Assembly (NCBI RefSeq): GCF_026016465.1 | Contig: NZ_CP100390.1 | Span: 1,464,001 to 1,528,000, forward strand | Source of the DNA: Alkalimarinus alittae | GTDB lineage: Bacteria > Pseudomonadota > Gammaproteobacteria > Pseudomonadales > Oleiphilaceae | Direction: 5' to 3' | Length of the DNA: 64,000 nucleotides | Shown here: one piece after another, positions 17,016-33,238 of the stretch | Layout: the number at the start of each line of letters is the position of its first letter | Numbering within the stretch: position 1 is the first letter of the stretch | Position numbers and translations under genes: made by a program | Notes under the pieces: model-generated | What the model saw: the letters and a program-made list of their open reading frames with translations, nothing else | Told to the model about the DNA's origin: nothing | Database searches by the model: none

Positions 17016-17597
17016 TTAAGCCGCTAGGTTTTGTGTAACAAATTCCCAGTTTACAAGCTTCCAGAATGCATCTAAATAAGCAGGGCGTGCGTTACGGTAG
17101 TCAATGTAGTAAGCGTGTTCCCAAAGGTCTACAGTCAATAGTGCTGTTTGACCTGCAGTCATGGGGGTACCTGCGTTGCTAGTGTTAACAATTTCTAACG
17201 ATCCATCAGCATTCTTAACTAACCAAGTCCAGCTTGCGCCAAAGTTGTTAACTGCTTTGTCGTTAAGCTGAGTTTGGAATGCTTCGAAAGATCCAAATGC
17301 AGCGTTGATTGCATCTGCTACAGCACCTGTTGGAGCGCCACCGCCATTTGGGCTTAGGCAATTCCAGTAGAATGTGTGGTTCCAGATTTGTGCTGCGTTG
17401 TTGAAAACCGGGCCGCTTGAAGATTTGATGATTTCTTCAAGCGTCTTTCCTTCAAATTCAGTACCCGGAACCATACCGTTTAACTTATCAACATACGTTT
17501 TGTGGTGCTTGCCGTGGTGATATTCTAATGTTTCTGCAGAGATGTGAGGTGCTAAGGCATCTTGTGCGTAAGGTAGTGCAGGTAATTCAAAAGCCAT
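17016..17597 (-). CDS. sodB: Iron superoxide dismutase
   Basis: The 193 residues equal the length of E. coli SodB. It opens MAFELPALPYAQDALAPHIS and shows YHHGKHHKTYVDKLN, NHTFYW, FGASWTWL and the metal-binding DLWEHAYYIDYRN block. The iron ligands are expected at the usual three His and one Asp. It dismutates superoxide in the cytosol. The ATG at 17597 is chosen over one 15 bases upstream because GGAGAAG lies at the proper distance and the family starts MAFELP. A perfect FNR/Anr-type box lies about 100 bases upstream, and a short match to the putative iron-stress sRNA overlaps the leader. Confidence 0.97.
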   Translation of the reverse strand: MAFELPALPYAQDALAPHISAETLEYHHGKHHKTYVDKLNGMVPGTEFEGKTLEEIIKSSSGPVFNNAAQIWNHTFYWNCLSPNGGGAPTGAVADAINAAFGSFEAFQTQLNDKAVNNFGASWTWLVKNADGSLEIVNTSNAGTPMTAGQTALLTVDLWEHAYYIDYRNARPAYLDAFWKLVNWEFVTQNLAA

Positions 17598-17696
17598 GCT
17601 GGTCTTCTCCATTGTTTTCTATCAGGAATTGCATTTATTTTGATTTGATTTTTGCATCGTAATTGTTTTAGGCAATGCTAAAGTCTGATGCTATTT

Positions 17697-25330: not shown

Positions 25331-25406
25331 GGGTGGTTAGCTCAGCTGGGAGAGCATCGCCCTTACAAGGCGAGGGTCACAGGTTCGATCCCTGTACCAC
25401 CCACCA
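25331..25406 (+). tRNA. tRNA-Val (anticodon TAC), copy 1
   Basis: It is 76 bases with CCA encoded. The acceptor arm GGGTGGT/ACCACCC, the D-arm GCTCAGCTGGGAGAGC, anticodon loop CTTACAA and T-loop TTCGATC are all in place. It is identical to copy 2 at 25536. Confidence 0.97.
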
Positions 25407-25440
25407 ATATTGGATAAAGTGAATGTTTTGATGTTGTTGC

Positions 25441-25517
25441 GGACCGGTAGTTCAGTTGGTTAGAATACCGGCCTGTCACGCCGGGGGTCGCGGGTTCGAG
25501 TCCCGTCCGGTCCGCCA
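25441..25517 (+). tRNA. tRNA-Asp (anticodon GTC), copy 1
   Basis: It is 77 bases with CCA encoded. The acceptor arm GGACCGG/CCGGTCC, anticodon loop CTGTCAC and T-loop TTCGAGT are normal. It is identical to copy 2 at 25647. Confidence 0.97.
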
Positions 25518-25535
25518 ATTAATAAACAATCCACT

Positions 25536-25611
25536 GGGTGGTTAGCTCAGCTGGGAGAGCATCGCCCTTACAAGGCGAGGGTCACAGGTTCGATCCCTGT
25601 ACCACCCACCA
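25536..25611 (+). tRNA. tRNA-Val (anticodon TAC), copy 2
   Basis: It is an exact repeat of the tRNA-Val at 25331, 18 bases after tRNA-Asp copy 1. It shows a tandem duplication of the Val-Asp pair. Confidence 0.97.
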
Positions 25612-25646
25612 ATTTAGTATAAAAGCTAAATATTAAAATTTGATGC

Positions 25647-25723
25647 GGACCGGTAGTTCAGTTGGTTAGAATACCGGCCTGTCACGCCGGGGGTCGCGGG
25701 TTCGAGTCCCGTCCGGTCCGCCA
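25647..25723 (+). tRNA. tRNA-Asp (anticodon GTC), copy 2
   Basis: It is an exact repeat of the tRNA-Asp at 25441 and the last gene of the four-tRNA cluster. No strong terminator hairpin is obvious right after it. Confidence 0.97.
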
Positions 25724-31765: not shown

Positions 31766-32659
31766 GTGGAAAAAGTAAGTGAAGTTGATATAGGTGTTGA
31801 TCTGCTGCTTTTTAGTCGTTGGCTAAGTAGTCAACGAGTTCTGCATCGGATAGCGGAAGAGAAGGGTGTTCAGGTTGTATGGGTCGAAGCCGCTGAAGCG
31901 GAGCCTTCAGTTAGAGCGGCACTTGATCGCTATCTGAGTGATGATGACTTTAAATCACAGGTAGATGCCTATAGTGCCCAACTTACCTTCACTGTAAGGT
32001 CTTCTGCTGCCGTAATGCCAAGACCCACCTTATCGCAGGCGCCTATAACATTTGCATTTATATGTCTTTCTATGATTATTGCTTTATTAACTGGCTTTGG
32101 AGAGGGCGGGCCTATACTGCGAGCGATGATGATAGTAGACCCTAGCGGGGTTGATGTCTCGCTAGCAACCACGAAGCTAAGCTTGCTGCTTTCTACGCTT
32201 GCTGATCTTCAGTTGTGGCGGCTCATTTCACCTGATTTTCTTCACTTTAGTAGCCTACACCTTATTTTTAATATGTTAATGTTTTGGTTTTTAGGCGGAC
32301 AGGTTGAGTCTTTGCAGGGTAAGGGGCGGTTTTTAATGTTGTTCTTAATCTGCTCTGCTGTCCCTAATATTGCGCAATATCTAGAAGCGGGCCCTTTGTT
32401 TGGGGGGATGTCTGGTGTTGTTTATGGGTTGGTGGGTTACTGCTGGTTGTGGTGTCGAAAAAGACCAGGTGAGTTAACGTTCCCACCTGCCATAATGGGG
32501 ATTAGTGTTGTTTGGTTAGTGATTGGCTATACATCATTAACTGAGACACTCTTGCTAGGGAGGATGGCTAACTCGGCGCATTTATTTGGACTGCTGACAG
32601 GGATGCTGTATGCCTATATAGTTTTATGTAAGACGGGGGCCAAAGAGAATAGTATTTAG
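31766..32659 (+). CDS. Rhomboid family intramembrane serine protease
   Basis: The 297 residues comprise a cytosolic N-terminal domain (about 1-90) followed by six or so membrane helices. The catalytic serine lies in GGMSGVVYGL (about 210) and the catalytic histidine in NSAHLFGLLTGML (about 272). The SSLHLIFNMLMFWFLGG helix, with the His and Asn of rhomboids, is also clear. The layout is that of GlpG, which cuts membrane proteins inside the bilayer. GTG start. A minus-strand terminator facing the gene end belongs to a putative sRNA. Confidence 0.9.
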   Translation: MEKVSEVDIGVDLLLFSRWLSSQRVLHRIAEEKGVQVVWVEAAEAEPSVRAALDRYLSDDDFKSQVDAYSAQLTFTVRSSAAVMPRPTLSQAPITFAFICLSMIIALLTGFGEGGPILRAMMIVDPSGVDVSLATTKLSLLLSTLADLQLWRLISPDFLHFSSLHLIFNMLMFWFLGGQVESLQGKGRFLMLFLICSAVPNIAQYLEAGPLFGGMSGVVYGLVGYCWLWCRKRPGELTFPPAIMGISVVWLVIGYTSLTETLLLGRMANSAHLFGLLTGMLYAYIVLCKTGAKENSI

Positions 32660-32674
32660 GCGGTAATAATTAAT

Positions 32675-32752
32675 AAAAAAACCCCTCTTTGGGAGAGGGG
32701 GTCACAATCTGTGAAGTTCCTGATGAGAGAGATCAGTAGAGCTTTAACACTC
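32675..32752 (-). ncRNA. Candidate Fur-repressed (RyhB-like) small RNA, about 78 nt
   Basis: On the minus strand, -35 TTTACA (32788-32783) and -10 TATCAT (32765-32760) are 17 bases apart, so transcription would begin near 32752. The transcript has a small hairpin (CTGAT/ATCAG) and then a Rho-independent terminator: CCCCTCT/AGAGGGG (32700-32694 with 32688-32682) followed by seven T. A near-perfect Fur operator covers the spacer and -10. Promoter, operator, length and terminator all match the RyhB/PrrF type of iron-stress sRNA. There is no obvious core-sequence homology to E. coli RyhB, and no expression evidence. Confidence 0.65.
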
Positions 32753-32788
32753 AAGACAAATGATAATCATTATCATTTGTCTTGTAAA
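32753..32788. promoter_or_regulatory. Fur operator overlapping the sRNA promoter
   Basis: The 15-base arms at 32753-32767 and 32769-32783 are perfect inverted repeats around a central C. The core AATGATAATCATTATC equals 16 consecutive positions of the 19-bp Fur consensus. It covers the -10 and spacer of the minus-strand promoter. It could also control the plus-strand yeaC gene 190 bases away. Confidence 0.85.
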
Positions 32789-32971
32789 TAGTATTAGTCT
32801 AATTTCTTTTCATTATTTTATTGTTTCAATCTTTTGGCTGCATTTTCTTAATCTCTGCAATGCTAGTTGCTATCAAAATAATATTCATTTTACCGACGGT
32901 AACAGTGAAACAATGGCTCGTTCCTCACTCTGTATGATATAGTCCTGCCTCCCTTTTTATGGATTACTGTC

Positions 32972-33238
32972 ATGACATTTGAAGAGATTGTTCAGAAAAT
33001 AGACCCACAAATTTATAAAAATTTACGTACTGCTCTAGAACTAGGTAAATGGCCAGATGGTCGAGTACTGACGCGTGATCAGAAAGAGATCTCTATGCAG
33101 GCGGTTATTTATTATGAAAACCAAGCCAATATAGCGGAGTCAGACCGAATCGGTTTTATCGACAGAGCTAAAGTTGAGGCAACGCCTTGCGCGACATCTG
33201 CAGGCACTAATGACGTTGAGGTCATTAAGGTTGGCTAA
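32972..33238 (+). CDS. yeaC: YeaC family protein (DUF1315)
   Basis: The 88 residues match DUF1315: MTFEEIVQKIDPQIYKNLRTALELGKWPDGR followed by LTRDQKEISMQAVIYYEN. This is a small cytosolic protein of unknown function, widespread in gammaproteobacteria. Its ribosome site is weak. It lies 190 bases downstream of a Fur operator, so iron control is possible, though that operator is better placed for the minus-strand sRNA. The DUF2797 gene follows after 77 bases. Confidence 0.88.
   Translation: MTFEEIVQKIDPQIYKNLRTALELGKWPDGRVLTRDQKEISMQAVIYYENQANIAESDRIGFIDRAKVEATPCATSAGTNDVEVIKVG

Follow-up and report, generated by a model that had tools for sequence, protein, structure and literature searches.

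A putative Fur-repressed, iron-sparing small RNA of Alkalimarinus alittae, most likely a diverged homologue of PrrF

Results

Anatomy of the minus-strand unit

The window, the whole stretch of 64,000 nucleotides of Alkalimarinus alittae DNA analysed here, contains a gap between two plus-strand genes: the rhomboid gene before it ends at 32659, and the DUF1315 gene after it occupies 32972-33238. Only one plus-strand open reading frame of at least 60 amino acids occurs across this gap (60 amino acids, 32760-32942) and it has no Pfam match, in agreement with the original prediction that no credible coding gene is present. At the Rfam gathering score, no small RNA (sRNA) family was found in the whole window, where five tRNAs alone reach it. 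Four consecutive tRNA genes at 25331-25720 have alternating identical scores, as a duplicated pair would. On the minus strand of the gap, the following features can be read:

32760..32788, minus strand: predicted sigma-70 type promoter TTTACA-17-TATCAT, called from its agreement with the consensus at 10 of 12 bases
32752..32784, no strand assigned: Fur-type operator by sequence match, a perfect 16-1-16 palindrome that spans the -10 box and the greater part of the spacer
32675..32753, minus strand: putative sRNA gene of about 79 nt, the 5' end being placed from the -10 box
32715..32734, minus strand: conserved predicted pairing core GATCTCTCTCATCAGGAACT, from the alignment of family sRNAs and complementarity to target mRNAs
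32675..32700, minus strand: intrinsic terminator, GC stem-loop and T7, read from the sequence

The two arms of the operator, at 32752-32767 and 32769-32784, are perfect inverted repeats of each other separated by one base, and the operator includes AATGATAATCATTATC, a run of 16 consecutive Fur-consensus bases, at 32759 with zero mismatches; with up to 3 mismatches permitted, shuffles of the window give a mean of 0.97 matches. The operator was called by comparison with the general Fur consensus. The terminator stem has seven pairs (32700-32682) followed by TTTTTTT on the minus strand; read on the plus strand, the same stem has an A run ahead and no T run behind. The architecture first proposed, namely, a TTTACA-17-TATCAT promoter covered by a palindrome with 16 consecutive Fur-consensus bases, then about 78 bases ending in a GC stem and a T run on the minus side only, was recovered in full, with a length of about 79 nt.

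The predicted fold of the window RNA is unremarkable by itself (z of -1.44; 20 of 200 shuffles as stable). Fold prediction places the core in a hairpin with an open CUCUCUC loop in the window's genus and in a mostly unpaired stretch in the RNAs of three relatives (g10). Covariation was sparse by RNAalifold (10 pairs, of which 2 changed on both sides), and structure was therefore not taken as evidence.

Conservation in the genus and in the family Oleiphilaceae

The whole unit is kept in four of the five genus genomes, counting the window's own (G000), and the other three copies are 86 to 91% identical to it; none was found in the fifth genome, G003. Beyond the genus, a loose DNA search recovered the 21-base core in many of the 163 genomes of this marine family among the matches listed, and the family copies that were fetched have a Fur-like site before the core and a GC stem with a T run after it. 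A loose 17-base pattern run on 26 genomes was dropped, with many scattered matches listed, though above the reversed control. We built a transcript-only model, R1, from 25 aligned sRNAs of 24 genomes, excluding the Fur site as far as possible; five loci without a core were left out of the alignment (L016, L022, L027, L036, and L038), and L035, which has both core and Fur-like site, was missed by the selection filter. In this set, partly selected by the core, TCTCTCTCATCAG is found in 25 of 25 sRNAs. R1 matches 136 of the 163 family genomes (24 of which supplied R1 itself) in 7 of 16 genera, the weakest match having an E value of 8.1e-7.

The core and the Fur-like site are linked. Across 59 family loci, each of the 39 distinct exact core copies is preceded within 75 nt by a Fur-like site scoring at least 12/19, and for 38 of them the score is at least 14/19, while 1% of random 75-nt control windows reach 13/19. 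Among 12 R1-negative family genomes in which we read the 420 nt upstream of DUF1315, G005, G008, and G159 have a diverged copy with a Fur-like site; the other nine have DUF1315 with neither a core nor a Fur site above 12/19 in these 420 nt, and one of them, G044, retains an apparent terminator. The original prediction had named as evidence against itself a poorly conserved transcript beside a retained Fur box; the opposite was found, the transcribed core being kept family-wide.

Relation to PrrF

The core UCUCUCUCAUCAGG aligns with the core of PrrF (Rfam RF00444), and PrrF is the sole Rfam match at the locus, at a permissive threshold (31.5 bits, E of 0.18). Elsewhere in the family, scores reach 35.4 bits in G001 and at most 43.3 bits (E of 4.9e-4), part of these scores stemming from the Fur box that the Rfam PrrF model includes. 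The gathering score of 90 bits is reached neither by the window copy nor by any scored family locus, and we do not claim formal PrrF membership because of the distance between 31.5 bits and this cut-off. At an E value of at most 1, RF00444 matches 14 of 17 core-bearing family loci (the exceptions are L003, L013, and L024), and it is the best Rfam family by E value in 13 of these 14, anti-hemB coming ahead at L018. An Rfam PrrF search of the five genus genomes gave one sub-threshold match, in G001, and none in G000. Weak Rfam matches to anti-hemB (down to an E value of 0.067), tsr26, Qrr, suhB, and GcvB were taken as chance.

R1 was then run against 390 genomes of the order, where 49 matched at an E value of at most 0.05, 18 within the family and 31 outside. 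We judged 16 of the latter to be chance matches, having no core and a Fur score of 8 to 12/19, and the other 15 have both the core and a Fur-like site (12 to 15/19). Five of the 15 score 157.9 to 163.2 bits against PrrF and are thus PrrF proper; the other ten, of families f34, f36, f37, and f38, score 43 to 70 bits, with cores intermediate in sequence or score. Among these ten, five f38 genomes carry exactly GATCTCTCTCATCAAGCTAATCACGG, of which the first half is that of the window core and the second half that of the PrrF core, ATCTCCTCATCAGGCTAATCACGG; one further genome is one base off GATCTCTCTCATCAAGCTAATCACGG, three have the PrrF-like TCTCCTCATCA, and the G262 variant contains an additional A.

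A second model, R2, was built from the non-family members alone; in this test, partly circular because those members had been found with R1, the window locus was matched with an E value of 3.3e-4, the next match in the window having 0.93. On 38 sources, R2 found all 26 core-bearing family loci (E values of 2.2e-6 to 0.099), ahead of its best match in eight background stretches (0.11). The diverged family copies L221, L223, and L224 gave no R2 match at an E value of at most 10 and no PrrF match at an E value of at most 0.5.

Several genomes carry tandem PrrF-like copies: five at one locus of G411 (L214, 250-1540), three each in G512 (L197) and G262 (L095), two each in G199 (L196) and G259 (L212), and, inside the family, a pair in G144 (L033). 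Tandem PrrF is therefore not special to P. aeruginosa. At one f38 locus (L092, 1672-2523), a gene for a cyclic-nucleotide-binding protein lies near the PrrF-like RNA; such a neighbour is present at the P. aeruginosa prrF locus as well.

Predicted mRNA targets

PrrF and RyhB repress mRNAs of iron proteins (PMC4211561 and PMC8534726), and a P. fluorescens data set gives negative values under iron limitation for SodB, AcnB, and LeuC in at least one table column (PMC3377617). We picked as targets RyhB/PrrF-type genes of ten genomes (sodB, sdhC, aconitase-family genes, and class I fumarase), except leuC, which came from the aconitase search. Each was scored by the best ungapped helix that the 30-nt core can form with positions -45 to +15 of the start, and leuC of G158 (wrong start) was excluded beforehand, as was sodB from the background since it lies within the window:

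17016..17597, minus strand: sodB (Fe superoxide dismutase family), predicted target; Pfam Sod_Fe_C match, start and stop read
17621..17628, minus strand: UUCCUGAU, predicted to be the target site in the sodB leader, lying 31 to 24 nt upstream of the start codon

In the window's own genome, the helices of leuC (-16.9 kcal/mol) and acnB (-13.8 kcal/mol) beat those of all 232 background genes, sodB (-9.2 kcal/mol) and fumarase (-8.4 kcal/mol) are equaled by 3.4% and 5.2% of these genes, and sdhC is ordinary (-7.2 kcal/mol, 13.8%). The five iron-enzyme mRNAs have a mean helix energy of -11.1 kcal/mol against -3.75 for the background, whose starts come from a crude custom open reading frame finder, so that wrong starts would weaken it. 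This mean was reached in none of 20,000 random five-gene draws, in none of 20,000 draws limited to the 110 background genes that have a Shine-Dalgarno-like motif, and by none of 300 dinucleotide-shuffled (mean of -6.5) or 300 mononucleotide-shuffled (mean of -3.8) cores. Two more aconitase-family genes of this genome (L150 and L159), kept outside the five for their uncertain starts and scored later, were ordinary: where their starts paired, the helices had -5.6 to -7.3, and one start gave no helix. A gapped duplex test with 233 background genes is less clear, with leuC in the best 0.4%, acnB 4.7%, sodB 6.9%, fumarase 14.2%, and sdhC 41.2%; the gapped duplexes, long and noisy, were set aside for the ungapped helices.

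Across relatives, the search for acnB covered eight of the ten genomes and found it in all of them, with an identical helix. G003 has no copy of the sRNA, and there sodB (-5.0), leuC (-5.3), and fumarase (-6.3) pair at background level, and the acnB and sdhC sites are still present; G155, which has the sRNA, pairs weakly at sodB (-6.5) and leuC (-6.7). In the window, sodB and the sRNA gene are about 15 kb apart, and a spacing of about 15 to 16 kb is also seen in G001, G002, and G155.

Fur-like boxes across the genome

The symmetric 19-mer AATGATAATNATTATCATT occurs with zero mismatches at two sites of the 4,254,924-base genome, the sRNA operator and position 1098318; when up to 3 mismatches are permitted, it occurs at 28 sites per strand and the reversed control pattern at 8. 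We examined the neighbours of eight other Fur-like boxes, 10 proteins in all. Two of these boxes adjoin proteins of unknown function and one a solute-binding protein; the other five are next to TonB receptor, PepSY, or flavodoxin genes. Because Fur-like boxes adjoin such genes, this genome likely has an ordinary Fur regulon. Along 1065561-1098336 of contig C1, Fur-like boxes are dense and occur together with TonB receptor, PepSY, and flavodoxin genes; this stretch includes the other perfect box and is probably an iron-uptake island.

Discussion

Altogether, our analysis argues that the segment 32675-32788 very probably encodes a small RNA made at iron shortage to shut down iron-using enzymes. 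We put at about 0.9 the probability that this RNA, about 79 nt long, is repressed by Fur and acts in trans to spare iron; in origin, it is most likely a diverged homologue of PrrF. We propose a model in which, in the presence of iron, Fe-Fur bound to the operator over the promoter would keep transcription off and, in its absence, the RNA would be made and would end at the terminator, as its anatomy suggests. The pyrimidine core would then pair with the ribosome-binding regions of the acnB, leuC, sodB, fumarase, and, weakly, sdhC mRNAs, which may block translation and promote mRNA decay, probably with Hfq.

This candidate resembles PrrF1 and PrrF2 of Pseudomonas in its Fur site over the promoter, here a sequence match, in its GC-rich Rho-independent terminator, in parts of the core, (A)UCUC(U)CUCAUCAGG...UCAC(A/G)G, and in its predicted Fe-enzyme targets, found here by complementarity with controls and weak for sdhC. 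Compared with the PrrF core AUCUCCUCAUCAGGCUAAUCACGG, the AUCUC-CUCAUCAGG half is retained with one extra base, whereas in the second half UCAC(A/G)G alone is retained and the GCUAAU part has changed. The window sRNA also differs by being single copy, by its gene neighbours, and by its length, about 79 nt counted from the predicted start through T7, versus 116 and 114 nt for PrrF1 and PrrF2 (PMC2851614). In all, we consider it likely, from sequence comparison, that the window sRNA and PrrF share common descent with subsequent divergence.

Of the "RyhB/PrrF-like" label given at first, the PrrF half stands, PrrF being the one Rfam family matched, and RyhB likeness does not extend beyond the proposed role of a Fur-repressed sRNA sparing iron. 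No RyhB match was obtained at the window locus at either the gathering or the permissive Rfam threshold. The targets of enterobacterial RyhB include sodB, acnA, and fumA (PMC8534726), and PrrF is described as having no sequence homology to RyhB (PMC4211561). NrrF and ArrF, iron-repressed sRNAs of other Proteobacteria, are named in the literature as PrrF or RyhB counterparts, as are HrrF and BrrF among the papers listed; the sequence comparison was by Rfam scan, in which none of the four appeared at the window locus.

An independent Fur-repressed sRNA could instead have converged on the PrrF motif, with the ribosome-binding sites of its targets forcing a CU-rich core. The Rfam score far under the cut-off and the different length would fit such an origin, as would the neighbours, which are rhomboid and DUF1315 genes in the window, SfsA and Rieske genes at the two f38 loci examined and, at the one Pseudomonas-type locus examined, a zinc carboxypeptidase gene. 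Yet ten genomes of f34, f36, f37, and f38 have intermediate cores or scores, each with its Fur-like site, and the five f38 genomes hold both core halves in the same order, so that we regard convergence as unlikely.

It is more improbable still that the Fur box serves the plus strand, i.e., DUF1315, or both directions, with the minus-strand RNA being secondary. The operator is symmetric, a weak plus-strand promoter-like site, TTAACA-18-CATTAT (9/12 consensus bases), overlaps it, and the gene starts about 190 nt beyond this site; against this, it is the minus-strand core and terminator that are kept between species, the core and Fur-like site of f38 occur together beside other genes, and nine of the 12 R1-negative genomes keep DUF1315 without either. 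That the RNA has a dual function or encodes a short translated peptide, instead of acting by base pairing, is scarcely credible, as 79 nt allow at most 26 codons and conservation, judged by eye, tracks the core rather than a reading frame; a 5-codon GTG frame can be made out by eye.

The diverged PrrF homologue that we favour appears to be new. In the open literature, outside which subscription journals mostly lie, we found no iron-sparing sRNA described for Oleiphilaceae, no joint mention of PrrF and Hahella, and PrrF together with Marinobacter solely through a reference title; among the matches listed, titles and the beginnings of abstracts report no PrrF outside Pseudomonas and its named counterparts. 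We lean toward the view that PrrF is not a Pseudomonas invention and rather an sRNA family spread through Pseudomonadales, with shortening in Oleiphilaceae, tandem expansion to five copies in G411, and loss. Through the intermediates, the PrrF pairing core can be followed across deep divergence. Many marine heterotrophs are limited by iron. With its named targets and its matches in 136 of 163 family genomes, this conserved candidate would be easily tested in a culturable relative. If our reading is true, G003, without the sRNA and several of the target sites, makes the coevolution of an sRNA and its targets testable in natural relatives.
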